A stretch of DNA of 64,000 bases. It comes from Labrys wisconsinensis (lineage in GTDB: Bacteria > Pseudomonadota > Alphaproteobacteria > Rhizobiales > Labraceae). Location: NCBI RefSeq assembly GCF_030814995.1, contig NZ_JAUSVX010000029.1:1-64000 (forward strand). The letters are read 5' to 3'. Numbering within the stretch: position 1 is the first letter of the stretch; each line of letters opens with the position of its first letter. A program made the translations under genes and the position numbers. Shown here piece after piece: positions 943 through 13,782 of this stretch. The notes beneath the pieces are model-generated. The model made no database searches. It saw nothing but the letters and a program-made list of their open reading frames with translations, and was not told the DNA's origin.

Positions 943-1610
943 TACTAGAGCCTGATCCGAGTTTTTGAATCGGACTGGGATTCACAAGCTGAGCGAATTG
1001 TGATTCAGATTCTCTGCCGGGCGGAGGCCGGCAGAGATGCCGACAGCGCTTTCGCTTGATCTTCGTGTCCGGGTTCTTGCCGCAGTGGCATCGGGTCTGA
1101 GCCACCGGCAGGCCGCAGAGCGCTTCGGGGTCAGTGCTGCAAGCGTCAGCCGCTGGCGGCGCTGGAGCGTGAACAGGGCATCGCCCGTCCCCGACCGGTG
1201 GGCGGGGATCAGCGTTCGCGGCATATTGAGGCGCACGGCGAGTTGATCATGTCGCTCTACGAGGCGACCCCGGACATGACTCTGCAGGAACTGCGCATAG
1301 CCCTGGCCGAGGGGGGGCACGGTCGGGTATAGAAGCCTGTGGCGCTTCTTCGATCGTCACGGCATCACCGTGAAAAAAGACGGCGCATGCGGCCGAACAG
1401 GAGCGTCCCGACGTCTTGAGGCGGCGCCAGGCCTGGTTCGAGGGCCAACTCGATCTGGACCCGGAGCGGCTGGTCTTCATCGACGAACCGAAGGTCCGCG
1501 CGGAGCAGCGAGACGTGGGCCTCGACCAACATGGCTCGCCTGCGCGGTCGGGCACCCCGCGGTCAGCGCCTGCGGGCCTCCATCCCGCACGGGCATGTGT
1601 GGACGCCCCC

Positions 1611-1856
1611 TTGGGCGCAAGTGAAATCTTGGGACAGGCGCGGCGCGTGATCGGGTGCTGCCATGTGTCCGACCTCTGATGCGGCTGGTTCATGTGCCGC
1701 GGGCCCGTATGGGAGTACGAGGGGCGGGACCACATCACTGGAACGCGCTCGAAGCGCTCACCATGCGCCTGGTTCTCCCGACCCCGCCTCACCGACGTTG
1801 CGCCATACCTATCCTTCAACCTCCTCACGCCTTCCGACAGCCTCGCGTCCGCTCGC
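1611..1856 (-). ncRNA. candidate bridge/seeker RNA region of the IS110-type element
   Basis: This 246-nt stretch lies between the transposase stop and the inner edge of the left inverted repeat and has no supported reading frame. IS1111-group elements carry their guide RNA downstream of the transposase gene, so this is the expected place. I did not fold it or identify target- and donor-binding loops. The assignment rests on position and element type only. Confidence 0.35.
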
Positions 1857-2882
1857 CTACGCGGAGACGGCCGGAGTTCGGTAGATTCCACCCTTCGTCA
1901 GCAATGCCCAGGCGATGCGCGCGTTCTTGTTGGCCAGCGCCACAATCACCAGCATCGGCGGCTTGCGCGCCAACATCCGGCCGAGCCACGAGCCGACCGG
2001 CACGCCTTTGCGTTTGGCCCAGCGCACAACTGCGCTCGAGGCGATGATGAGAAGCCGTCGTAATGTGCGTTCTCCCATGCGCGAGGTGCGGCCGAGACGC
2101 TCCTTGCCGCCGGTCGAACGCTGCACCGGCGTCAGGCCGACCCAGGCAGCAAAGTCACGGCCAGAGCGGAACGTCTCCACCGGCGGCGCCAGCGCCTCGA
2201 TGGCGGTGGCGATCAATGGACCGATCCCGGGCACCGTCATGAGCCGGCGAGCAACGTCATCGGTCTTCGCCCGTGCAGCAATCTCCGCATCAAGCGCGGC
2301 AGTCTGTTCCTGCAGGTGGCGCAGCGCGCCGACAAGCACGGCGAGGCAGGTGCGGGCGGCCGGCGGCAGGCCCGAGCCGGAATCCTCGATCTGCGCGATC
2401 AGCCGCCCGACGTGGAAGGGACCTTGTGGCGCAATCAACCCATACTCAGAAAGGTGACCGCGGATCGCGCTGATGAGCTGTGTGCGCTGGCCAACCAGCA
2501 CATCACGAGTCCGAAAGATCATGGCAGAGGCCTGTTTGGTCTCGCTCTTCACGGCTACGAAACGCATGGTCGGGCGCTGCGCGGCCTCGCAGATTGCCTC
2601 GGCATCGGCCGCGTCGTTCTTTTGGCGCTTGACGAAAGGCTTCACGTAGGCCGGCGCAATCAGCTTCACCTCGTGGCCGAGCTTACCGATCTCGCGGCCC
2701 CAATAATGGGCGCCGGGGCAGGCTTCCATGGCGACTACACGGAGAGGATGGCCAGCGAAGAAGGCCAGCACCTGATCGCGCCGCAGCTTCCTGCGGAAAG
2801 CCGGAGTGCCGTTGGCATTCGCGCCATGCGCCTGGAAGACGTTCTTGGCCAGATCCAGGCCGACGGTGCTAACCTCTGTCAT
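1857..2882 (-). CDS. IS110-family transposase
   Basis: This 341-residue DEDD recombinase appears intact. The N-terminal RuvC-like domain shows VGLDLAKNVFQAHG (Asp), RVVAMEACPGAHYWGRE (Glu) and KRQKNDAADAEAI (paired Asp). The C-terminal transposase_20 domain shows VPGIGPLIATAIEAL and GLTPVQRSTGGKERLGR, which carries the nucleophilic serine of the family. The start at 2882 (MTEVSTVGLDL) is chosen over an upstream ATG at 2936 because GGGAGGT sits seven bases before it and it matches family N-termini. IS110 enzymes act with an element-encoded guide RNA. It is the only transposase here that still looks functional. Confidence 0.9.
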   Translation of the reverse strand: MTEVSTVGLDLAKNVFQAHGANANGTPAFRRKLRRDQVLAFFAGHPLRVVAMEACPGAHYWGREIGKLGHEVKLIAPAYVKPFVKRQKNDAADAEAICEAAQRPTMRFVAVKSETKQASAMIFRTRDVLVGQRTQLISAIRGHLSEYGLIAPQGPFHVGRLIAQIEDSGSGLPPAARTCLAVLVGALRHLQEQTAALDAEIAARAKTDDVARRLMTVPGIGPLIATAIEALAPPVETFRSGRDFAAWVGLTPVQRSTGGKERLGRTSRMGERTLRRLLIIASSAVVRWAKRKGVPVGSWLGRMLARKPPMLVIVALANKNARIAWALLTKGGIYRTPAVSA

Positions 2883-3447
2883 GGACACCTCCCTTGGTGG
2901 CTCTGAAACGCCACCACCTTGGCACGTCGATGGCATCGGGGGGGCGTCTACCCCATCACCGGAAGACCACCACCTTCGTCGCGGGGTTGACGACGCGCGG
3001 TATGATCGCCCCCTTCGTGCTCGCCGGTCCGATCCACCGGCGCGCCTTCGAGACCTATGTCGAAAAGGTCCTCGTCCCCGAACTCAGGTCCGGCGACATC
3101 GTCATCATGGACAACCTGTCCAGCCACAAGGGGCCGCGAGTGTACCACCTCATCCAGGCGGCCGGCGCCACCCTCCGATACCTGCCGCCCTACTCGCCCG
3201 ACTTCAACCCGATCGAGAACGCCTTTGCCAAGCTCAAAGCGCTCCTGCGAAAGGCCGCCGAGCGCACCGTCGACGGCCTGTGGCAGGCAATCGGCCGCTT
3301 CGTCGATCTCTTCAAACCAGACGAGTGTGCCAACTACTTCTCCGCTGCCGGATACGATGCAACGTGACCGGATTTTGCTCTAGCATCTGGCGGAGGAGAT
3401 GGGCCAAGCTCATCGGGCTGACAGTCATGGACACGGCTTTCTCCTGC

Positions 3448-4328: not shown

Positions 4329-6467
4329 TCAGGCCCCCAACGGTGCCATGCCGACCCGCACGACCTGCAGGTTGGCGTAGTGCGGCGGCGAGCTGCTGTC
4401 GCGGATGCAGGTGCGCGCGCCCGTCCTCCGGCCGGAATTCGAGCCGGTCGCCGCGTCCAGGCCGTCGTTGCGCGTCCCGAGATGGATGCGCAGGTCGCCG
4501 TCGGGTCGAACTGCAAACTGGACGGAGAGGATGCGGACAGGCGCACCCACGACATCATTGTCAGGCCGGGGCATCAATGAGGTGATGGCCTTCTGGCTGT
4601 TGGTGCCGTCGAAGCATTGGACGCCGGCGAGCCCCCACGCTGGCGGGATGACGCCACCGTTCTCGATCGTGCCGGTGAGATCGACCACCAGCGGCGCTGT
4701 GAACGTGCGGAAATAGAGATCCAGCCGTGTCGGCGAGTACCAGCGATGCGAGATGACGCGGGTCGAGATCCGACGGCCCTTGCCGAAATAAGCCTCGAAG
4801 ATCGCCCGGCCTTTCTTTCGTCCATAGCCCTTGTACCCCGGGGACCCGAAATGGACGCCAGTGTTGCCGCTGCCCTCGATCCATGAGGTTTCCTGATCGT
4901 AGATCGGCGGCATCAGGAAGAAGTCACGTCCGGCGTCTAACTCGATCGGCGCCAGAATGTGCCCCGGCATCAGGCCGTCGGTGCCGACCGAATTGACCGG
5001 CTGGTGTAGCAGAATGATTGGGTCACGCTTCTGGCCGGTGATGGCGCGCACGTCCTCGAAGACGCGCCGGGCCATGTTCTGGCGATGCTCGACAGAGACC
5101 TCGCCACGGATGCCGACATTGCGATCGGTCTCACCCTGGCCGTAGTCGATGGCGATGACCTCGATCGACTTCCGGATCTTGCGGGCGGCTTCGACGCAGT
5201 TGGCCAAGCCCTTGCGAAACACCGAATGCACAAAGTTTCCAGGGCCGATCTGATCCCAGGTGCGGCCGCCGCGGGAGGCGATGAAAGCCGCGACCTGCGG
5301 CTTGACGCCGATATGGGCCAGGCACTGACTGGTAATCTCGCCGAGGCACGAGGAGACCCACGTCTCTTTGTTCGTGTCATAGCCAGTGCCTGGATACTCG
5401 TAGACATCGCGGAATGCGTCGAACGCCTGACCATCGGGTTTTTTCCCGACCGCTGGTTCCAGCGCATAGCCCGGATCGATCGGATCGGGAGTTAGAATGA
5501 CGTCGTCAGGGTTGTCATTCGCAGAGCCTTCCAGTGATTGTCCGAGACCAACAATGAGGAAGACCTTGTCCTCGTAGTCGTCCGGCAGCGAATAGATCGA
5601 CGCGACCGTCACCACGCTGTTGTAAGGTTCAATCGATTCTAGGTCGTTCGGCCAGCCGCCGGCGCCGAGCGGACTGGGATCTGGCAGCGGCAGTAGCCCA
5701 GCAGGACCAGGCACATAGACGCGACCGTCCGTCCCGGCCGCCAGCACTACTTTGTTGCCGGCGTCCGTCATCTCGTGCGCGTAGGGGCCGGAGCCGTAGA
5801 GCGTCGCAGTGCTTTGGCTTGAGACCGGACCGAGCCACTTCCAGCCGATTGGTGCTGCCGCATGGAAGGCATAGCTACCGGCGTTCGATACAGTCGCGCT
5901 AGTCACGGGATCAACATGCGTGCCGAGGTCGTTCTCTGGAACTTGCGCGCCTTGATTGTTCGGCAGCGTCGTGATCGCTGCCAGGTCGGCATAGGTCGCC
6001 AGGATGATGAGGCCTGCGGTTCGGGCATCTTCGAGATTGTTCAAGCGCTCGCTCAAGCCCGAGTTAACGGCCGCTTGCGCCGTCGAGATCGGCTTGTCGC
6101 TGTCCCGGGTGTTGTCGACCAAGGAGATGTCAAGCAGCGATCGAGCCTCAGGCTTGGCCGGTGCAGTCACGAGGGCGCGAGAAAAGCTGGAAGTATCAGC
6201 GATGTCCGCGGAGCCGATTGTGTCCCAACGTGGCACCAATGATGTCGGTACTTTCAGCACATGTCCGGTATCGCCCGGCACCGGTGGCGGCATGTTGCCG
6301 GCAGCCGCGACGACGTCTTGGACTTGCTGGACCGTGGCCAAATCCGTCGCAGCGTGGCCGGGCGCCGCGTTGACACCCCGATGCCCCCCAAACTCCAAGT
6401 CCCGCCACAGCGGGAACAGCAGCGGGTCCGGTCCGGTCAGGACGAAGGTGATCTCGGCCTCTTGCAT
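4329..6467 (-). CDS. phage tail protein with SGNH (sialate O-acetylesterase-like) hydrolase domain
   Basis: This 712-residue protein opens with a tail-collar-like segment (MQEAEITFVLTGPD, then a Thr/Ala-rich region). A hydrolase domain begins near FLIVGLGQSLEGSAN, whose GQS motif resembles the nucleophile block of the sialate O-acetylesterase group. IAIDYGQGETDRN matches the QGE block, and a histidine in TGVHFGSPGYKGYG is a candidate for the final catalytic block. The C-terminal 150 residues look like a beta-rich carbohydrate-binding tail. It probably trims acetyl groups from capsule or LPS during adsorption. The start at 6467 has a GGAG ribosome site and lies two bases after the previous stop. 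Confidence 0.7.
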   Translation of the reverse strand: MQEAEITFVLTGPDPLLFPLWRDLEFGGHRGVNAAPGHAATDLATVQQVQDVVAAAGNMPPPVPGDTGHVLKVPTSLVPRWDTIGSADIADTSSFSRALVTAPAKPEARSLLDISLVDNTRDSDKPISTAQAAVNSGLSERLNNLEDARTAGLIILATYADLAAITTLPNNQGAQVPENDLGTHVDPVTSATVSNAGSYAFHAAAPIGWKWLGPVSSQSTATLYGSGPYAHEMTDAGNKVVLAAGTDGRVYVPGPAGLLPLPDPSPLGAGGWPNDLESIEPYNSVVTVASIYSLPDDYEDKVFLIVGLGQSLEGSANDNPDDVILTPDPIDPGYALEPAVGKKPDGQAFDAFRDVYEYPGTGYDTNKETWVSSCLGEITSQCLAHIGVKPQVAAFIASRGGRTWDQIGPGNFVHSVFRKGLANCVEAARKIRKSIEVIAIDYGQGETDRNVGIRGEVSVEHRQNMARRVFEDVRAITGQKRDPIILLHQPVNSVGTDGLMPGHILAPIELDAGRDFFLMPPIYDQETSWIEGSGNTGVHFGSPGYKGYGRKKGRAIFEAYFGKGRRISTRVISHRWYSPTRLDLYFRTFTAPLVVDLTGTIENGGVIPPAWGLAGVQCFDGTNSQKAITSLMPRPDNDVVGAPVRILSVQFAVRPDGDLRIHLGTRNDGLDAATGSNSGRRTGARTCIRDSSSPPHYANLQVVRVGMAPLGA

Positions 6468-6469
6468 GG

Positions 6470-6820
6470 TCACTCCGTCACGTCGATGAGGACTTCGCCG
6501 ACGCGCTGGACAGTCGACGGGGTTTCGAGGAAGCACTCGATCGAGAAGCGGCGGCCTGGCTCTTCGGCCCAGAACGCGCGCGGGATGGTAAGGCGGCACA
6601 GCCCGTTCGTGACGATGACGAGGGTGCAGGCGCTGGCCGGCGTGGTGGTGGTGATGTCGAGCACTGGCGTGCCTGTGTCGGGATAGGCGCGCATCTTGAG
6701 GCGCACCCGGACGCCTGTCAGGTCGGCGTCGGCGATCCGGGCAGCCTGCTTGGCTTGGATGCTGATGTTGATCGTCGCGTCGTCCGAGCGGAACAGTGTG
6801 ATCGTGGATGGACCAGCCAT
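6470..6820 (-). CDS. small phage tail/baseplate-type protein
   Basis: This 116-residue protein begins MAGPSTITLFRSDDATI and includes DLTGVRVRLKMRAYPDT, a beta-sandwich pattern similar to N-terminal domains of phage baseplate upper proteins (weak resemblance, from memory). I prefer the start at 6820. An upstream ATG at 6931 overlaps the preceding stop as ATGA and would give 153 residues, but the codons between the two lose the G/C third-position bias seen elsewhere. The stop is two bases before the esterase start, so the genes are co-translated. It may link fibre proteins to the tail tip. Confidence 0.5.
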   Translation of the reverse strand: MAGPSTITLFRSDDATINISIQAKQAARIADADLTGVRVRLKMRAYPDTGTPVLDITTTTPASACTLVIVTNGLCRLTIPRAFWAEEPGRRFSIECFLETPSTVQRVGEVLIDVTE

Positions 6821-6927
6821 GGCGGCTCCCAAAGAAAAGGCTGCGGAGGCGGCTTGCGGAGGTGAGAGAAGAAGGTCAGCGATCCACGAGTCGCCGGAAC
6901 CGCACCGCACGGTCACGCGGTCCCACT

Positions 6928-7200
6928 TCATCGGCCGCCGTGGCTCGCAGTGGCGTGCCGGTCCTCGTGCAGCAGGATTGCGCCGGCACGCGATTGGCAG
7001 TGGCCCCGGTGGTCGGCGCGGTGGATCTCGACTGGCTGGCCCGGATCGGCTTCAACCCGGGCCCTTGCCTTCGGGCCCGCCGTCAGGTCGTCTACGGGGA
7101 TGGGCCGACAGGTTCTTTGCGGGTCGATGTCGACGAAGCGGGTGTGCTCGCTGCAGCCGGACAACGGGACGGCGCGCTCGACGGATTGATCGGCGATCAT
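6928..7200 (-). CDS. hypothetical 90-residue protein in the phage tail operon
   Basis: Start ATG at 7200, stop at 6928-6930, in ATGA overlap with the alternative start of the next gene. Its codons carry strong G/C bias in third positions (about four fifths), unlike the reading frames on the other strand, which is the main reason to call it. I do not recognise the sequence. It is Arg, His and Asp rich, with no membrane segment and two Cys near the middle and end. It could be a decayed second baseplate protein. Confidence 0.4.
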   Translation of the reverse strand: MIADQSVERAVPLSGCSEHTRFVDIDPQRTCRPIPVDDLTAGPKARARVEADPGQPVEIHRADHRGHCQSRAGAILLHEDRHATASHGGR

Positions 7201-7300
7201 GTTTGAACAGTCCGGTCCCGCGGATGGGGCGGTGCTGGACGTCGATGAGGATCTCGCGGAGGCGCCGGAGAGGCCGTGCCGTCGTCGGGGCCTGCTGACG

Positions 7301-10099
7301 TTATTTCGAAGCCTTCTCGTAGTCTTTCTGTGCTCCCTTCACGCGATAGTCCCGGTTCGTCATCGGACGTGCCGGCTCGCCCTCTCGCGCGGGGTCGGAG
7401 ACAGCCCCCTCCGCCAGCGCGTAGGCGGTCTCGAGCGGGACGATCAGGGGCGTTCCGCCCTCCCCGGGGACAAACCGGCTGTGGTCGGGATCGTAGAGGG
7501 AAAGCCCGTCGCCGTTGTTGCGCCAAATGCCGCGCTCACGCAGGCGCTGGAGCTCTTCCGGTACCAGTCCGCGGCGGCCGGCTTGTTTCAGCAGGATGTC
7601 CTTCTCCATGTCCAGGCCGTCGACGAGCCGCATCGGGTCGGTGGATTCTGGCACGGCGGCATTGATGTGATCGGATTTGATTGCAGTCAAGCTGCCGTAG
7701 AGCGATCGGATGGCTTTGTCGGTAGCGCTCAGTAGAGCAACCCCGCCGCGGGAAAGCAGAATCTTGGTCGCATTCCGTAGCAGCACTCGATCGGACGCAT
7801 AGGGGGCGATATCGTACCTCCGCGGATCGTCGGGGTCGTTGTAGGTTCGGCCGTACAGCGTGCTTGCTATGTCCCAGGAGACCGACAGCCGGGATTGGAT
7901 GGCTTGATCGATGGCGCCATCCGAGACTGGTTGTTCCGTGTATCTGTCGCCACTGAGTGTATTGCTTCCGGCGAAGACAAATTCGGTCATCGCCGGCAGC
8001 TGCCCCGGGTCCAGCGTCGCCGCGGCGAGCAGGAGCGTCGCGCCGTCGCGATCGCCTCGCCCGAGCGCGTCGAGGGCGCGCCCCGCAATCCGCGGCATGC
8101 CGGCCTCGGTGAGCTGGCGCAGGATCGCTTGCTGCTGCTCCTTGGCCGGCATGGCCTGGACGAGCCGTGCCATCGCCTCCAGCCGCTGCGCCGGCGGCAG
8201 CGTGCCGTCCTTGATCTGCGTCGCGGCGGCGCGGGCCATGTCGAGGGGCAGCAGCCTCTGCTTGTCCGGCGCGATGCCGAGCTGGGCCTGGGCCAGAGCG
8301 CTGGCCCAGAGCGCCGCCGTATAGGCCTCGGGCGATTGTTGCGCCGCTTCCCAGGCCAGACGCACATAGGGGAAGACTTGCCGGGCATAGCCGGCGGGGT
8401 CGGCGGCCCGCGCCGAAAGCGTCTCAGTCGCTGCGGCAGTGAGGGTCTCGTAGCGGGCCTGGGCTTGACTGGTGCTCTTGCCTGCCGGCGGTTTCGCGGC
8501 CTCCAGCTGGGCTCTGAGCTCCGCCTCGCTCTGGGTCCGGAAGCGATGGATGGCGCGGCCGGTGTCCACGGCGCTGACGAAGCCGTCGTACCGGCGCTGT
8601 CCCTCCTGTGAGCCGAAGGCCCCGAGGAAATCCTCGCGGCTCGGCATCGGGCCGGCATAGCTGCCGTCGCTCCGAATGCTCGCGGTCGCATCCTGGATCG
8701 TCTGCTCGAGCGAGGCGCGCTTCTCCTGGCTGTTGCGGTCGTTGGCCGCGACAAGCGTTGCCGCAAGGCTCTGCTGGGCGTGAGGCGGCAGGTCGGGCCA
8801 TTGCTGTGCGACGAACCGCTTCGCTGTCGTGTTGGCGTCGGACGCTGCGGCAGGGGCGTCGGTCTGCCCGAGCCGCCGGGCGAGCGGCGGCTTGGCTCCG
8901 TCGGGCGCCATGTCGGCGCCGTCCGCGCCGGTGACCACCGTCTCGGCCCTTCGGTCCGCCACCGGCTCTGGAGGCAGGTCGTTGGCGACCGCCGTGACGA
9001 CTTGGCTCACCAGGGGGACGGCGCCGGGTGTCTGCCCGTCGCGCACCTTGTCCAGATAGGCGCGCGTCTCGGCTGGCAGCACGCGCGGATCCTTGCCGGC
9101 ATTCAGCCACGCCGCCGCCCGCGAGGGGCCGCCATTATAGGCGACGACCGCGGCATCGACATCGCCGAACCGGTCCATCATCCTGTCGAAATAGGCACGG
9201 CCGATGCGCAGGTTGACCTGCGTGCCTTCGGGCGTGGCGAAGAACCTGTGCAGCTCCGCGTCGGACATGGCCGCGACGTCCGCCAGGCCCATGTCCCGTG
9301 CCACCTCTCGGGCAGTGGCCGGCTCGACCTGGGCAAGGCCGAGCGCGCCGGCCCGTGACCGCGCTGCCGGGTCGCGGGATGCGTTCTCGGCCGCGAGCAT
9401 CCTCTGCCAGACCCGGTCTGCCGGCCTGGGCGGAGCAAAGATCGCGTCGACGAGGGTCCGGTTGCCGGCGATCGCGCCGAGATGCGACGAGGCCCATGTG
9501 CCGGGCAGATCGGCGAGGAGAGCGTCCTTCTGGATCGGCGTCAGGCGGCGATCGTTCGCGATCAGCGTCCGCTCCTGCTCATAGCTTCTCCTCCAGGCGG
9601 CGGCGTCGTCGGGAGTCTGCGCCAGTCTCCCAAGGACGTTGTCGGCGCGTTGACGGGCCAGCGCGCCGGCATGGCGCTGGCTCTCAATGGCCTCGGCTGC
9701 TCCGAGCTGTCCCGTCAATTCGCCGTCCAGGGCATAGTAGGCGCTGCGATAGTGCGGCTTGAGGGGGGCGGGCACGGTCTGGTCGAAGGTGTTGACCGCA
9801 GCGCGATATCGGTTGCGCAAGTCGGCCGTGGCGCCGCCTCCGCCCGGCTGCATTCCGTCCTGCGCTTGACGCGCCTGCTCCCGCCAGCCGTTTTGGAACT
9901 GCTCCCAGGCGGTGGCCGTGTCGAGGGCCTGCTCGGTCCGGCGCTGCTGTGCCAGGTCGCCGGCGAACTCGGTGACGGCGGTGCCGAGCTTGCGCACGGC
10001 CGGCCCGACAGCGTCGGCCGGACCGGGCGCGATCGGGCGCCCGCTGAGATAGCTCTGTGCTGCCGGGCCGAGATCGGTGGAGTCGGGCAGGCGGGGCAT
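7301..10099 (-). CDS. internal virion protein with lytic transglycosylase domain
   Basis: This 932-residue protein has a soluble lytic transglycosylase-like domain near residues 230-350. AAENASRDPAARSRAGALGL carries the probable catalytic Glu and the family's GxxGLxQ block, followed by LRIGRAYFDRMMDRF and VVAYNGGPSRAAAWL. The rest is long, helical and Ala/Gln rich. This is the layout of T7 gp16-like ejection proteins, which open the peptidoglycan locally as DNA enters. No separate gp15-like gene is seen, so this one may combine both roles. Its ATG overlaps the preceding stop as TGATG, so it is translationally coupled to the gp14-like gene. Confidence 0.75.
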   Translation of the reverse strand: MPRLPDSTDLGPAAQSYLSGRPIAPGPADAVGPAVRKLGTAVTEFAGDLAQQRRTEQALDTATAWEQFQNGWREQARQAQDGMQPGGGGATADLRNRYRAAVNTFDQTVPAPLKPHYRSAYYALDGELTGQLGAAEAIESQRHAGALARQRADNVLGRLAQTPDDAAAWRRSYEQERTLIANDRRLTPIQKDALLADLPGTWASSHLGAIAGNRTLVDAIFAPPRPADRVWQRMLAAENASRDPAARSRAGALGLAQVEPATAREVARDMGLADVAAMSDAELHRFFATPEGTQVNLRIGRAYFDRMMDRFGDVDAAVVAYNGGPSRAAAWLNAGKDPRVLPAETRAYLDKVRDGQTPGAVPLVSQVVTAVANDLPPEPVADRRAETVVTGADGADMAPDGAKPPLARRLGQTDAPAAASDANTTAKRFVAQQWPDLPPHAQQSLAATLVAANDRNSQEKRASLEQTIQDATASIRSDGSYAGPMPSREDFLGAFGSQEGQRRYDGFVSAVDTGRAIHRFRTQSEAELRAQLEAAKPPAGKSTSQAQARYETLTAAATETLSARAADPAGYARQVFPYVRLAWEAAQQSPEAYTAALWASALAQAQLGIAPDKQRLLPLDMARAAATQIKDGTLPPAQRLEAMARLVQAMPAKEQQQAILRQLTEAGMPRIAGRALDALGRGDRDGATLLLAAATLDPGQLPAMTEFVFAGSNTLSGDRYTEQPVSDGAIDQAIQSRLSVSWDIASTLYGRTYNDPDDPRRYDIAPYASDRVLLRNATKILLSRGGVALLSATDKAIRSLYGSLTAIKSDHINAAVPESTDPMRLVDGLDMEKDILLKQAGRRGLVPEELQRLRERGIWRNNGDGLSLYDPDHSRFVPGEGGTPLIVPLETAYALAEGAVSDPAREGEPARPMTNRDYRVKGAQKDYEKASK

Positions 10100-10692
10100 C
10101 AGAGGGACCTCCGCCTGCGGGCATCGCGCATGGTCAATTCGTCCTCCCCATAGGGCGACTTGGACGCGGACGGTATCGCCGAGCCATAGGCCTTGTAGGC
10201 TGCCATCGGGGCCGAGAGCAGGCTGGAGCCCGCATCGATGAAGCCCGCCATCCTGGCGTTGCGCGCGTTCAGGCGCTGCACGGCAGCGGCGTCCTCGTAG
10301 CCGCGGGCGCGGTTCTCGCCGAGGCCGACCGTCGTGCCGCGCTGGACGTAGCCCTGCGCCGCGGTATCGCCCATCAGGTCGAGGATGCTCGGGTCGGTGG
10401 CCGAGCCGCCGCCCGCCGCCGCGAGCGCCTGCTGGCGCGAGGTCACCAGCGTCTGCTTCCTGGCCTGGTCGGCGGCCTCGCGCGAGGCGGCGGCGCGCTC
10501 CTCTGTCGCCTTCATGTTGAGCTGCTGGGCCTGGAACTTGGCGTTCTCGGCCTGGGCGTTGCCAGAGAGGATCGAGCCGCCGGCGGAGACCAGGCTGCCC
10601 GCCACGCTCAGGGCGGCGAAGATGCCGGGATCGAACACCGCGCCCCTGCCGGCCAGCGAATAGGGTGCATCGTAACCTGCCAGTGCGTGCAT
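10099..10692 (-). CDS. T7 gp14-like internal virion protein
   Basis: This 197-residue protein starts MHALAGYDAPYSL, with a Gly/Ala/Ser-rich hydrophobic segment near residues 25-45 (AALSVAGSLVSAGGSILSG) and then a long Ala/Gln/Arg helix (QAENAKFQAQQLNMKA, ERAAASREAADQARKQ). That pattern is characteristic of podoviral internal core protein B (gp14), which forms the outer-membrane channel during ejection. The start at 10692 overlaps the preceding stop as TGATG. Its place between a gp13-like and a gp16-like gene supports the call. The sequence match itself is a family resemblance judged by eye. Confidence 0.65.
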   Translation of the reverse strand: MHALAGYDAPYSLAGRGAVFDPGIFAALSVAGSLVSAGGSILSGNAQAENAKFQAQQLNMKATEERAAASREAADQARKQTLVTSRQQALAAAGGGSATDPSILDLMGDTAAQGYVQRGTTVGLGENRARGYEDAAAVQRLNARNARMAGFIDAGSSLLSAPMAAYKAYGSAIPSASKSPYGEDELTMRDARRRRSL

Positions 10693-11084
10693 CAGAACAG
10701 CCTCTTCACATGGACCTGCTTGCCGTCGGGCGCGATCTCGTCCGTCGGCTGGAAGCCGAGGCGCGCCATCCATTCGGCGGCGCGCGGCACGTCCTCGCTC
10801 ACTGTGGCGTACAGCGCCGCCACCCTGTTCCGCTTCAACCCCGCCAGGAAGCGCAGTGCCTTGCGGTGCAGCCCGCGGCCGAGCGCATCATGATAGTCGG
10901 GCGCCCGCAGCACGAATCCCCAGTGGCGCCCGTCGTCGAGCGTCTTCGCCACGCCGCCCATGCCGACGCAGCGCCGCCCGGCCCAGGCCGTGAGCCCGTA
11001 GAAGCGCAGCGGCGCCGTCGCCTTCACCGGCCCGAACCGGTAGATGTCGGTCTGCCGGCTGAGCCGGAGCTCAACGGGAATCAT
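10692..11084 (-). CDS. GNAT-fold protein resembling T7 gp13
   Basis: This 130-residue protein has the strand-helix layout of a small N-acetyltransferase: GRRCVGMGGVAKTLDDGRHWG, then an acyl-CoA-binding-like turn (DYHDALGRGLHRKALRF) and ALYATVSEDVPRAAEWMARL before the final LGFQP. T7 gp13 (DUF2833) belongs to this fold, and the position before gp14 and gp16 equivalents fits. It overlaps the tail tubular B gene by 14 bases. Whether it acetylates anything is unknown; gp13 is needed for virion assembly. Alternative: a phage-carried acetyltransferase modifying host or virion proteins. Confidence 0.55.
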   Translation of the reverse strand: MIPVELRLSRQTDIYRFGPVKATAPLRFYGLTAWAGRRCVGMGGVAKTLDDGRHWGFVLRAPDYHDALGRGLHRKALRFLAGLKRNRVAALYATVSEDVPRAAEWMARLGFQPTDEIAPDGKQVHVKRLF

Positions 11085-13782
11085 GTGTTGCCACGCCGAT
11101 CACCGCGGCCTTGACGGTACAGGGCCAGGGTGCCTGCGCCTCCAGGGCGAAGCGGCTGTCGGTCGACCAGCTGCCGTCGAAGGACACGGCGGCGTCGTCG
11201 ATCTCGCCCTCGACGGAGGCCGGGTCGACCTCCCGGCCCCGCACCATCAGCGGCAGCGGGTCGAGCCTGTCGAGCGCGGGCCCGAAGCGCAGCCCGGCTC
11301 GCGCCGTGTTGCCGAGCAGCAGGCCGAGGTGGTCGACCCGCTTCCTCTGCAGCAGGGCCGTGCCGGCGTCCGCGGCGTAGGCGAGCTTGGTGGAGAGGAA
11401 GGTCGCCGTGTAGGGCAGGCCGTACCAGACCGTCGTCGCGGCCACCGGCAGGGTGAAGCTGCCGCCGGCGACGGCAAGGTCCTGATAGCCCTTGCCGTCG
11501 GCCCAGGCGACGATGCCGCGGCCGTTGAAGGCGTCGGCGCCTGATATCGTCGCGGCGGGGCTGGGGTTGACCACGAGCCGGCCGCAGTCGGCCAGGCGAT
11601 TCACGGCGCCGCCGCGGGTGTCGCTCTCGGAGCTCTGGCGTTCGATGCAGCGCGTCGGCGTGCCGTTCAGCGTGCGCAGCACGCAGAGATACACGTCATC
11701 CTGCGTCGTGCCCGGCAGAGCCTCGCCATCCTCGATCGCCCCGTCGGTCTGATAGAGCGCGAAGGCGATCACCTTCTCGTCGCGGTTATAGGTGGCCACC
11801 AGCATCGTGCCGTCGGCGAGCACGGCATGGATGCGCTGGTCCGGCCGGCGCTGCACGAAGATCTTGGCGATGCCGGCCTCGGCGATGTCGGGCACCATGC
11901 GCATCAGGGTCTGGGCGGCATAGTCGCCGTTATCGCCGAGGGCGATCTCGAACAGGTCGACGCCGCTGCGCCCGACATAGACCCCGCGTGGCCCGATCGC
12001 GACCGGCGCGACCTCGGCGCCGCCGACCTGCTCGAACTCGCGGGCCGAGAAGGCGGTCGGGGTGATCGGCTCGTCGATGGCCGAGGAGCGGATCACGTTG
12101 AGCGCAACGGCCGAGCCGACCACGAGGTTGAACAGGCGCAGGATCCAGAGATTGCCATCGGCCGGGCCGGTTGCGATCGAGCGGATCACCGGCGCGGCAT
12201 CGCCCGTCGTGCCGTCGTCGTAATTGTCGAAGGCGTCCGATACCGAGCCGTAGAGGTAGTTCGAGCCGAGCCACCAGAGCCGGCCGTCCTGGAAGGCGAC
12301 GTCGCGCGGGAAGCCGCGGAAGGCGGACCAGATGCCTTCGCGCCAGTTCGAGGTGGCCACGGTGTCGCCGAGCGGCGAGACGACCTCGGCGCCGACATGC
12401 GCATTGTCGGTGTAGCCGGTGACGCGCACCACGCCGACGGTCGAGCCGTTGGGATATTGCAGCTCCACCGTGGCCGAGCCGCTGGTGTATTCGCCGGCGG
12501 CGACGCCGATGCGGTAGTAGACGATGGCATTGTCGTTGGTGTCGGTGATCTCGGCGCCGTTGGTGACTGTCGTGACGGCGTTGCCGGCGATGGAATAGTT
12601 GAACCAGCCCTCCGGGTTGCCGAAGGCGCGCTGGATGCGGATCGTTCCGACGAATCCGGCATTGTTGAACAGCACCTTGAAGGTGCGCTGCCCATTGCCT
12701 TTGGAATTGTCATCCGCAGCGACCCCGCGGGCCCCGGAGACACGGATCGGATCAGTCCACTGGTCGTCGCCGGAGACGGTCGCCGCCACGTCCTGGCCGG
12801 TATGGATGAGTTCCCAGATGGCGCCGACATGGCCGGGCTTGAACAGGGCGCGACTGGCGGTGAGCGTGATGCCGCCGGTCTTGCCCGAGGGCCGGATCGT
12901 CGCCGGATTGGCCGGCTGCGTCAGGAACGGGCCCTTGATCGAGCGATAGTCGGCCACCGACCAGGAGCGGCGGCCGCGGCTCTCGATGCGCTGCTGGGGG
13001 TAGCCGCGGCAGGCGGCGAACAGCACGTCGCCCTGCTGGGACAGGCGCACCTTCCGGATATCGGCCGCCGCCCAGGGCGCCGGCAGCTCCACCACGCCGA
13101 CGGCATCGAACGAGACCGGCCCGACCTCGCGGCGGTAGATGTCCGGCGCGGCGAACTGCAGGTACACCGTGCCCGTGAGCGTCACGGCGAGCTTGTGGCT
13201 GCCGGTGCCGAGCGAGGTCTCGGTGACCAGGTCGTCGTCGCCGGCCGAGGTGCCGATGCGCATGAGCACCGGCCCATAGGGCACGACGATGGTCAGGCCG
13301 TGCTCGGTGCCGGCGGAGGCGGGCGGCACGGTGATGGCCTGGGTCAGGGTCGAGCGCGAGATGCCGTTGCCGGCGATGCGCGCGGTGCCGGAGCCGGAGG
13401 CGGTGACCGAGCCGCCCGAAACCGCGCCGGCGGTCCAGCCGGTCAGGCCGGCGAAGCTGCCGTTGGCGATGGTGGTGTCGACCGCGCTGCGCATGACCAG
13501 GGCGCCGTCGTTCCAGATGCGGATCGTGCGGTCGGTGAGCTCGAGCAGCGAGCACTGCGCCGCGGTACCGACGAACGGGATCAGCCGGGCGGCGAGGTTG
13601 TTCCGGGTCGTGCCGAGATAGTCCGTGCCCGGCCGCAGGCCCATCCAGCCGAGGGTGGAAAGCAGCCAGTTGCGCACCGTCTCGCCGCAGACGGCAAGGC
13701 GCGGCAGGTCGATGCGGCCGAGCGCCAGCGGCGAGACCTGGCCGCCGTTGAAGCTGTAGACGGGGAAGTTGCCGCGGCTCAC
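11071..13782 (-). CDS. tail tubular protein B (podoviral nozzle-type protein)
   Basis: This 903-residue protein starts MSRGNFPVYSFNGGQVSP and continues LGRIDLPRLAVCGETVRNWL and GWMGLRPGTDYLG, a signature shared by large podoviral tail nozzle proteins (FNGGxxSPxxxGRxDLxxY, then xxRPGTxxL). The remainder is beta-rich with repeated Gly/Thr strands, as expected for stacked propeller-like domains. It overlaps the tail tubular A gene as ATGA and the gp13-like gene by 14 bases. It would form the distal tail tube through which DNA passes. Length is close to that of T7 gp12-type proteins. Confidence 0.75.
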   Translation of the reverse strand: MSRGNFPVYSFNGGQVSPLALGRIDLPRLAVCGETVRNWLLSTLGWMGLRPGTDYLGTTRNNLAARLIPFVGTAAQCSLLELTDRTIRIWNDGALVMRSAVDTTIANGSFAGLTGWTAGAVSGGSVTASGSGTARIAGNGISRSTLTQAITVPPASAGTEHGLTIVVPYGPVLMRIGTSAGDDDLVTETSLGTGSHKLAVTLTGTVYLQFAAPDIYRREVGPVSFDAVGVVELPAPWAAADIRKVRLSQQGDVLFAACRGYPQQRIESRGRRSWSVADYRSIKGPFLTQPANPATIRPSGKTGGITLTASRALFKPGHVGAIWELIHTGQDVAATVSGDDQWTDPIRVSGARGVAADDNSKGNGQRTFKVLFNNAGFVGTIRIQRAFGNPEGWFNYSIAGNAVTTVTNGAEITDTNDNAIVYYRIGVAAGEYTSGSATVELQYPNGSTVGVVRVTGYTDNAHVGAEVVSPLGDTVATSNWREGIWSAFRGFPRDVAFQDGRLWWLGSNYLYGSVSDAFDNYDDGTTGDAAPVIRSIATGPADGNLWILRLFNLVVGSAVALNVIRSSAIDEPITPTAFSAREFEQVGGAEVAPVAIGPRGVYVGRSGVDLFEIALGDNGDYAAQTLMRMVPDIAEAGIAKIFVQRRPDQRIHAVLADGTMLVATYNRDEKVIAFALYQTDGAIEDGEALPGTTQDDVYLCVLRTLNGTPTRCIERQSSESDTRGGAVNRLADCGRLVVNPSPAATISGADAFNGRGIVAWADGKGYQDLAVAGGSFTLPVAATTVWYGLPYTATFLSTKLAYAADAGTALLQRKRVDHLGLLLGNTARAGLRFGPALDRLDPLPLMVRGREVDPASVEGEIDDAAVSFDGSWSTDSRFALEAQAPWPCTVKAAVIGVATHDSR

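Follow-up and report, generated by a model that had tools for sequence, protein, structure and literature searches.

The analysed window, a 64,000-nucleotide stretch of Labrys wisconsinensis DNA, carries near its left end an insertion sequence of the IS1111 type that interrupts the transposase gene of another mobile element, an IS630 insertion sequence. The features of the two nested elements are as follows.

1037–1595, plus strand: 5' portion of the interrupted IS630 transposase gene, with a broken frame (approximate extent, from in-frame stops and the ORF)
2959–3367, plus strand: 3' portion of the interrupted gene (IS630 transposase, model NF033545)
1596–2958, minus strand: complete IS1111-type insertion sequence, 1363 bp (IS1111 end rule, rejoined IS630 frame and the same ends in relatives)
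2952–2958, minus strand: 7 bp left extension TGATGGG, beginning with the core TG
2940–2951, minus strand: left subterminal inverted repeat GTAGACGCCCCC
1857–2936, minus strand: DEDD transposase, intact ORF of 359 aa from the first ATG
1615–1620, minus strand: TTGCGC, candidate −35 box, which would lie 17 bp from CATGAT in a promoter created at the circle junction
1599–1610, minus strand: right subterminal inverted repeat GGGGGCGTCCAC
1596–1598, minus strand: 3 bp right extension ACA
1594–1595, minus strand: core dinucleotide TG, the target-side copy at the right end of the element

Upstream of the IS630 gene, positions 1–930 contain a frame-broken stretch that by eye resembles a DDE transposase remnant. 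On the other side, minus-strand genes at 4329–13782 match a phage tail fibre (phrog_4201), a tail protein (phrog_376) and head/endolysin-like families (phrog_37988, phrog_992 and phrog_1044); this predicted prophage or tail-module region adjoins the nested elements.

Element ends, transposase and interrupted gene

The element was placed at 1596–2958 because of the end rule of the IS1111 family, with 7 bp outside the left repeat and 3 bp outside the right (PMC11187229). It displays the traits of that family, namely subterminal repeats in the range 11–13 bp, the 7 and 3 bp extensions and no target duplication; the 12 bp arms reported by the first-pass annotation were confirmed at 1599–1610 and 2940–2951 and are complementary at 11 of 12 positions. 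Joining 1595 to 2959 gives CCG CAC GGG CA^C CGG AAG (^ marks the join), which encodes PHGHRK and restores the motif PHGHRKTTTF. The rejoined flanks read CCGCACGGGCA^CCGGAAG, PHGHRKTTTFVAGL, in a frame shared with the upstream IS630 stretch TNMARLRGRAPRGQRLRASI, and uninterrupted IS630 genes have PHGHWK at a spacing identical to that of the rejoined site. The ORF in the right flank scores 93.3 bits against NF033545, slightly below the 100-bit cut-off. The host gene is broken elsewhere too, because its frame holds stops farther upstream. The ends, the transposase and the rejoined frame thus bear out the earlier view of an IS1111-type element inside an IS630 element, but the bounds then proposed (1597–2956) were off by 1 and 2 nt. 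The AT then read as shared by both junctions is present at both places, but the core consistent with the rejoined site is TG (1594–1595 and 2957–2958 on the minus strand); by our reading, the former boundary would insert one codon there (GHHRK).

The transposase had been described as an intact DEDD enzyme, which agrees with an unbroken ORF that matches NF033542 (IS110-family RNA-guided transposase) with an E value of 1e-97 and also PF01548 and PF02371. It contains the motifs GLDLAKN, AMEAC, KNDAADA and GLTPVQRSTG, which we take to carry the D-E-D-D residues. The start is likely to be at 2882, giving the 341 aa annotated in plasmid relatives; with that length and with GLTPVQRSTG the protein conforms to the IS1111 description (DEDD, ∼330–350 aa, C-terminal GL-P----S(t)G). 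The only solved chains matched by its sequence are the ISCro4 and IS621 transposases. A weak match of the ORF to the TIGR-Tas endonuclease model NF052498 (E value 9.4e-4), below the cut-off, was also observed. The 246 nt non-coding 3' end of the first-pass annotation was confirmed at 1611–1856; it lies downstream of the transposase gene, as in the IS1111 family, and not upstream, where the IS110 group has its long non-coding region.

The genome holds a single full copy of the element, together with a 315 bp stretch (68% identity) and two of ∼50 bp, and a match was found in none of four congeners. The element is not a product of chance, because 120 plasmid records in PLSDB each hold at least 80% of it in one place.

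Probable guide RNA region and its covariation with the flanks

The relatives used for comparison come from a scan of genome contigs, in which the 80 loci L005–L084 are the best 80 of at least 569 confirmed relatives and make 81 elements with the window. A strict filter on the ends allowed the arms at most two mismatches and required a right extension A-x-A and the same core, TG or CG, at each end; 56 of the 81 passed it, the window included (39 TG and 17 CG), and 25 were dropped. Since the filter demanded equal cores, their presence in the 56 adds no independent support; in a looser list, most of the elements whose right end is clear have equal cores. Five plasmid records were added as L090–L094. 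In the transposase tree, the window and L005–L010 form one starred branch of seven rows. The RNA features recognized in the window are the following.

1600–1809, minus strand: conserved non-coding guide (seek/bridge) RNA region, predicted from 35 aligned TG-core elements with compensatory pairs
1776–1785, minus strand: outer stem of the target loop, 5' side, with its 3' side at 1721–1729 (helix 3)
1758–1769, minus strand: right target guide GGCGCAUGGUGA, pairing with the top strand of the right flank
1744–1758, minus strand: hairpin separating the two target guides (helix 5; 98.6% of cells paired, two-sided changes in two of four pairs)
1736–1743, minus strand: left target guide UUCCAGUG, resembling the left flank plus core
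1662–1668, minus strand: putative donor guide ACACAUG, a copy of the right end of the element plus core (5-mer identity in 56 of 56)

The structure was derived from 35 TG-core regions among the 56, the 17 CG-core elements and four near-copies having been left out. RNAalifold recovers the outer stem, the inner hairpin and a third hairpin; in the outer stem 94.3% of cells are paired and seven of eight pairs show two-sided changes. Tested on the alignment from which it was derived, a bias in its favour, the set of 27 named pairs has 96.8% of cells paired and two-sided changes in 13 pairs, each value being reached by none of 500 shuffles; the number of further pair types was reached by 21 of 500, and partners slid by 1–3 columns are 20–40% paired with 0–4 pairs showing two-sided changes. 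Folding of the single sequence, which the first-pass annotation had proposed as a check, does not discriminate and was rejected as proof of a guide RNA, whereas the alignment does discriminate. On the minus strand, the stability of 1611–1856 does not reach significance (z = −1.74, equalled or exceeded in 12 of 200 shuffles) and 1600–1809 gives z = −0.22 (84 of 200); the plus strand of 1611–1856 gives z = +1.42 (184 of 200). Rfam at gathering thresholds has no match in the window. The element, if excised, would bring TTGCGC and CATGAT together at its junction with a spacing of 17 bp, and CTTGC, at the putative −35 box, is invariant in all 35 aligned elements. In 11 elements (L020, L024, L034, L035, L038, L054, L058, L060 and L072–L074) 3 nt are missing before the right repeat and the left extension is TGATGAT (10) or TGATGCT (one), neither peculiarity being seen in the 45 others; together, the two changes could preserve the 17 bp promoter spacing at the circle junction.

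Alignment of all 56 non-coding regions reveals two variable stretches that flank a hairpin within a conserved stem. The one on the 5' side complements the right flank and the one on the 3' side resembles the left flank plus core; in the window the right guide likewise precedes the left on the minus strand, which is the order of IS1111 seekRNAs. The mean fit of the guides to their own flanks is 6.68 and 6.64, compared with 3.99 and 3.80 in 1000 partner shuffles (z = 14.3 and 16.1, with the best register allowed for both and kinship uncorrected); these raw z-scores are inflated, because elements of one clade share targets. Kinship was addressed by comparing closest relatives with unlike flanks, arranged in disjoint pairs. 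The left guide fits its own flank better than that of its relative in 25 of 27 such pairs, with two ties, and the right guide in 23 of 28, with three ties and two opposite results (the window with L005, where the cross fit is higher by 1, and L073 with L054). By column, the left guide carries the flank base in 93% of the 56 elements at LF-3, 89% at LF-2, 88% at LF-1, 86% at LF-5 and 80% at LF-4 (28–36% expected) and matches the first core base in all 56. Columns of the right guide agree in 50–62% (22–27% expected, n = 56), a weaker agreement because the register shifts by 1–2 nt between groups.

Scored along the rejoined loci, the guides put the true insertion point at the top in 39 of 55 cases (26 without ties) and within the top five, ties counted, in 41 of 55; the guide columns had been chosen on the same data, all positions were scored alike and L038, the left flank of which is missing, was omitted. 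Four loci (L061, L032, L047 and L035) have the true site at rank 26 or worse. The true site of the window ranks fourth, with 14 ties, among ∼125 000 positions. Its right guide forms seven Watson–Crick pairs and one wobble pair over 11 positions, with three mismatches, and the left guide matches at seven of nine scored positions. In codons, CGCAUGG of the right guide corresponds to (C)CG CAT GG (P-H-G, first base excepted) and the reverse complement of the left guide to CAC TGG AA (H-W-K). The guide spells TGG (Trp) and the local IS630 gene has CGG (Arg); L005 shows the same difference, with CCAG in the guide and CCGG in the flank. These mismatches are either tolerated or reflect drift of the target after insertion. 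Complementarity to target within the window, another check proposed at the first pass, is therefore present but imperfect, and the search for other copies gave no second full copy in the same genome but did give relatives whose guides for the most part follow their flanks. The window taken alone gave this mixed result; support for the guide RNA comes from the comparison of relatives, in which guides covary with flanks; this upholds the earlier suggestion that such an RNA could spell a coding target in IS630.

A further segment, downstream of the target loop, has the form GGACA[C/G/T]A[T/C]G, with a different second base in five of 56 elements. Its last five bases equal the last three of the element plus the core in 56 of 56, in four states (ACATG in 25, ACACG in 17, AGATG in 13 and ATATG in one); the state has changed at least five times on the transposase tree and the RNA agrees after each change. 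This suggests that the donor end may be recognized by the RNA through its copy of the right end and core. The stretch CCCGAUCA was considered as a guide to the left end: in the window group it is close to the complement of TGATGGG, apart from one bulge. Elsewhere it varies while the left end is constant, and it was rejected. Measured against the two-loop donor arrangement of bridge RNAs, the right-end half is identical in 56 of 56 and the left-end half is unclear, so that covariation supports the right-end half of the predicted donor guide only.

Targets among relatives

The window element, L006–L010 and L090–L093 interrupt IS630 transposase genes at the same codons, and the plasmid element L094 does not. 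L011 has only the left flank of such a site, and the flanks of L005 show no IS630 reading frame. L006, inserted in PFGHWK, has a guide with the sequence GCCGUUCGG (P-F-G), and in L007, where the motif is LQGHYK, the guides contain CAGGGG (Q-G) and UGUAGUG (H-Y). The guide is UUCCAAUG for the flank TTCCAA in L008 and L093, and CGCACGGG for the flank CCCGTGCG in L090 and L091; L092, with UUCCAG against TTCCAA, is a counterexample. For the most part, the guides follow the amino-acid variants of the motif (GHW, GHY and FGHW).

Targets were also sought from the guide. The pattern CCGCAYGGNCACTGGAA, the first base of which was taken from the site and not from the guide, occurs at 16 places in 13 of 199 genomes of the order (reversed control, three), and IS630 transposase genes account for 13 of the 16. 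The pattern CGCAYGGNCACTGGAA is built from bases that the guide supports, Y standing for the wobble, and includes a gap of one base placed according to the register of relatives; it occurs at 12 places in 11 of 289 genomes of the class, nine of the 12 being IS630; because its reversed control gave nine, the evidence is the IS630 share and not the number of matches. Sites were called IS630 after inspection of the translated context and not by a model. Neither pattern matches within the genome of the window element. At one site with PHGHWK (L112), the IS630 frame soon enters unrelated sequence that by eye is IS3-like, perhaps another nested element.

Other relatives have other targets. L013–L016 lie at a second IS630 motif, VMD or IMD^NL[GP][SA]HK, with guide scores of 6.0–8.5; this motif presumably holds a catalytic aspartate. 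L012 and L072 adjoin IS6 transposases, and L054 and L074 adjoin IS5 transposases; we take TGTTGCA to be a terminal repeat of the IS6/IS5 type and GTRAGCG to be the end of an IS66 element. Seven CG-core elements (L046, L063, L066, L068, L079, L082 and L083) have flanks of GTRAG or GCAAG^CG, which we assume to be like IS66-type ends. A scan of the two longest flank ORFs covered 40 of the 41 loci listed (without L083), the window, L005–L010, L012–L016, L054, L072 and L074 (15 in all) having been skipped. Transposase-type matches, several of them below the model cut-off, were found in seven of the 40: IS3 in L034, IS5 in L038 and L046, an IS66 accessory gene in L079, IS21 in L082 and IS110 in L018 and L043. 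Other genes only were matched in 14 and nothing in 19. Some relatives are inserted in ordinary DNA. The idea that the whole clade hunts mobile elements is weakened by the count of just seven in 40.

Proposed mechanism, alternatives and known systems

We read the element as an IS1111-family insertion sequence that probably finds its target by RNA base pairing, with a probability of roughly 0.92 and with activity predicted. Its anatomy and the covariation of guides and structure were established by comparison; from the sequence we infer transcription, complex formation and activity. After excision, a transcript starting at the circle junction would carry the transposase and the RNA downstream of it. 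The two guides in one loop would pair with the top strand to the right of the cut (5' guide) and the bottom strand to its left (3' guide), together with the TG core spelling ∼15 nt of the IS630 codons P-H-G-H-W-K, and the segment repeating the right end and core would probably pair with the donor. By analogy with IS621 and ISEc11, the transposase would exchange strands at the TG core, giving no target duplication.

The likeness of guides and flanks might instead reflect common descent of element and site, the target being recognized by the protein. Members of a clade do share targets, with nine changes of five target labels on the tree compared with a shuffled mean of 28.6, but elements with nearly identical transposases and different flanks have matching guide differences on both sides (L006 and L007, 95% identical; L023 and L078, 93%; L008 and L009, 91%), which makes this explanation very improbable. 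RNA-guided targeting by elements of this kind leaves the state of the window copy to be judged separately. It may be a dead relic whose RNA region is preserved merely through recent insertion, as its single full copy, the imperfect match to its target and the damage elsewhere in the host IS630 would allow; the ORF, ends, stems and donor guide are all intact, however, and we consider a relic unlikely, though a serious possibility, one that bears on activity and not on the kind of element.

The RNA might also choose only the target, as in the seekRNA model, the ends being recognized by protein and ACACAUG having a different function, for instance in RNA processing or in binding a protein. An 82 nt seekRNA suffices for ISEc11 (PMC11187229), and the expected pairing with the left end is not clearly seen here. 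The ACACAUG-type segment is nevertheless identical to right end and core in all four of its states (56 of 56), and donor-binding nucleotides have been predicted for many IS1111 RNAs (PMC11208160); we regard a target-only RNA as rather improbable.

The wider proposal is that an IS1111 clade parasitises another insertion sequence through guides that spell its transposase codons and drift with the variants of the prey, that related groups have been re-aimed at VMD^NLGSHK or at IS6/IS5-type ends, and that the RNA is a bispecific bridge pairing with the donor via right end and core; to this combination we would give even odds. The relatives offer a natural series of retargeted RNA-guided transposases, with near-identical proteins, different guides and known targets. 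An element whose guide spells a conserved protein motif would find landing sites in many genomes and would disable a competitor rather than a host gene. Covariation on the donor side makes it directly testable how IS1111 elements recognize their own ends.

The element belongs to the known seekRNA/bridge-RNA kind; it is aimed at IS630 codons and is part of an unusually clear natural retargeting series. IS1111 elements aimed at IS630 codons were not found among the literature matches listed, a set outside which lie bioRxiv preprints, most subscription journals and ISfinder. With the IS1111 seekRNA elements ISEc11, ISKpn4, ISPst6 and ISPa11 (PMC11187229) it shares the subterminal repeats, the 7 and 3 bp extensions, the downstream non-coding region, the transposase size and GL-P----S/TG motif, the order of a top-strand followed by a bottom-strand guide and natural redirection among relatives. 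It differs from them in that the target is a coding motif of the IS630 transposase, that the guides track codon and amino-acid variants of this motif and that there is an extra conserved donor-like segment. In IS1111 seekRNA systems an RNA of 70–100 nt copurifies with the transposase and is essential, and the family has a circular intermediate with a junction promoter; such an RNA and such a promoter are predicted for the window element. With the bridge RNA of IS621 and the IS110 family (PMC11208160 and PMC11208158) the window RNA shares a target loop with left and right guides that have the core dinucleotide in common and a segment copying a donor end, whereas here the RNA lies downstream of the gene, the guide order is reversed, the subterminal repeats are long and only one donor half is clear. 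IS4321 and IS5075, also of the IS1111 family, similarly insert into other mobile elements at one site; their reported targets are the terminal repeats of Tn21-type transposons, whereas the window element lies in the protein-coding part of an IS630 gene.
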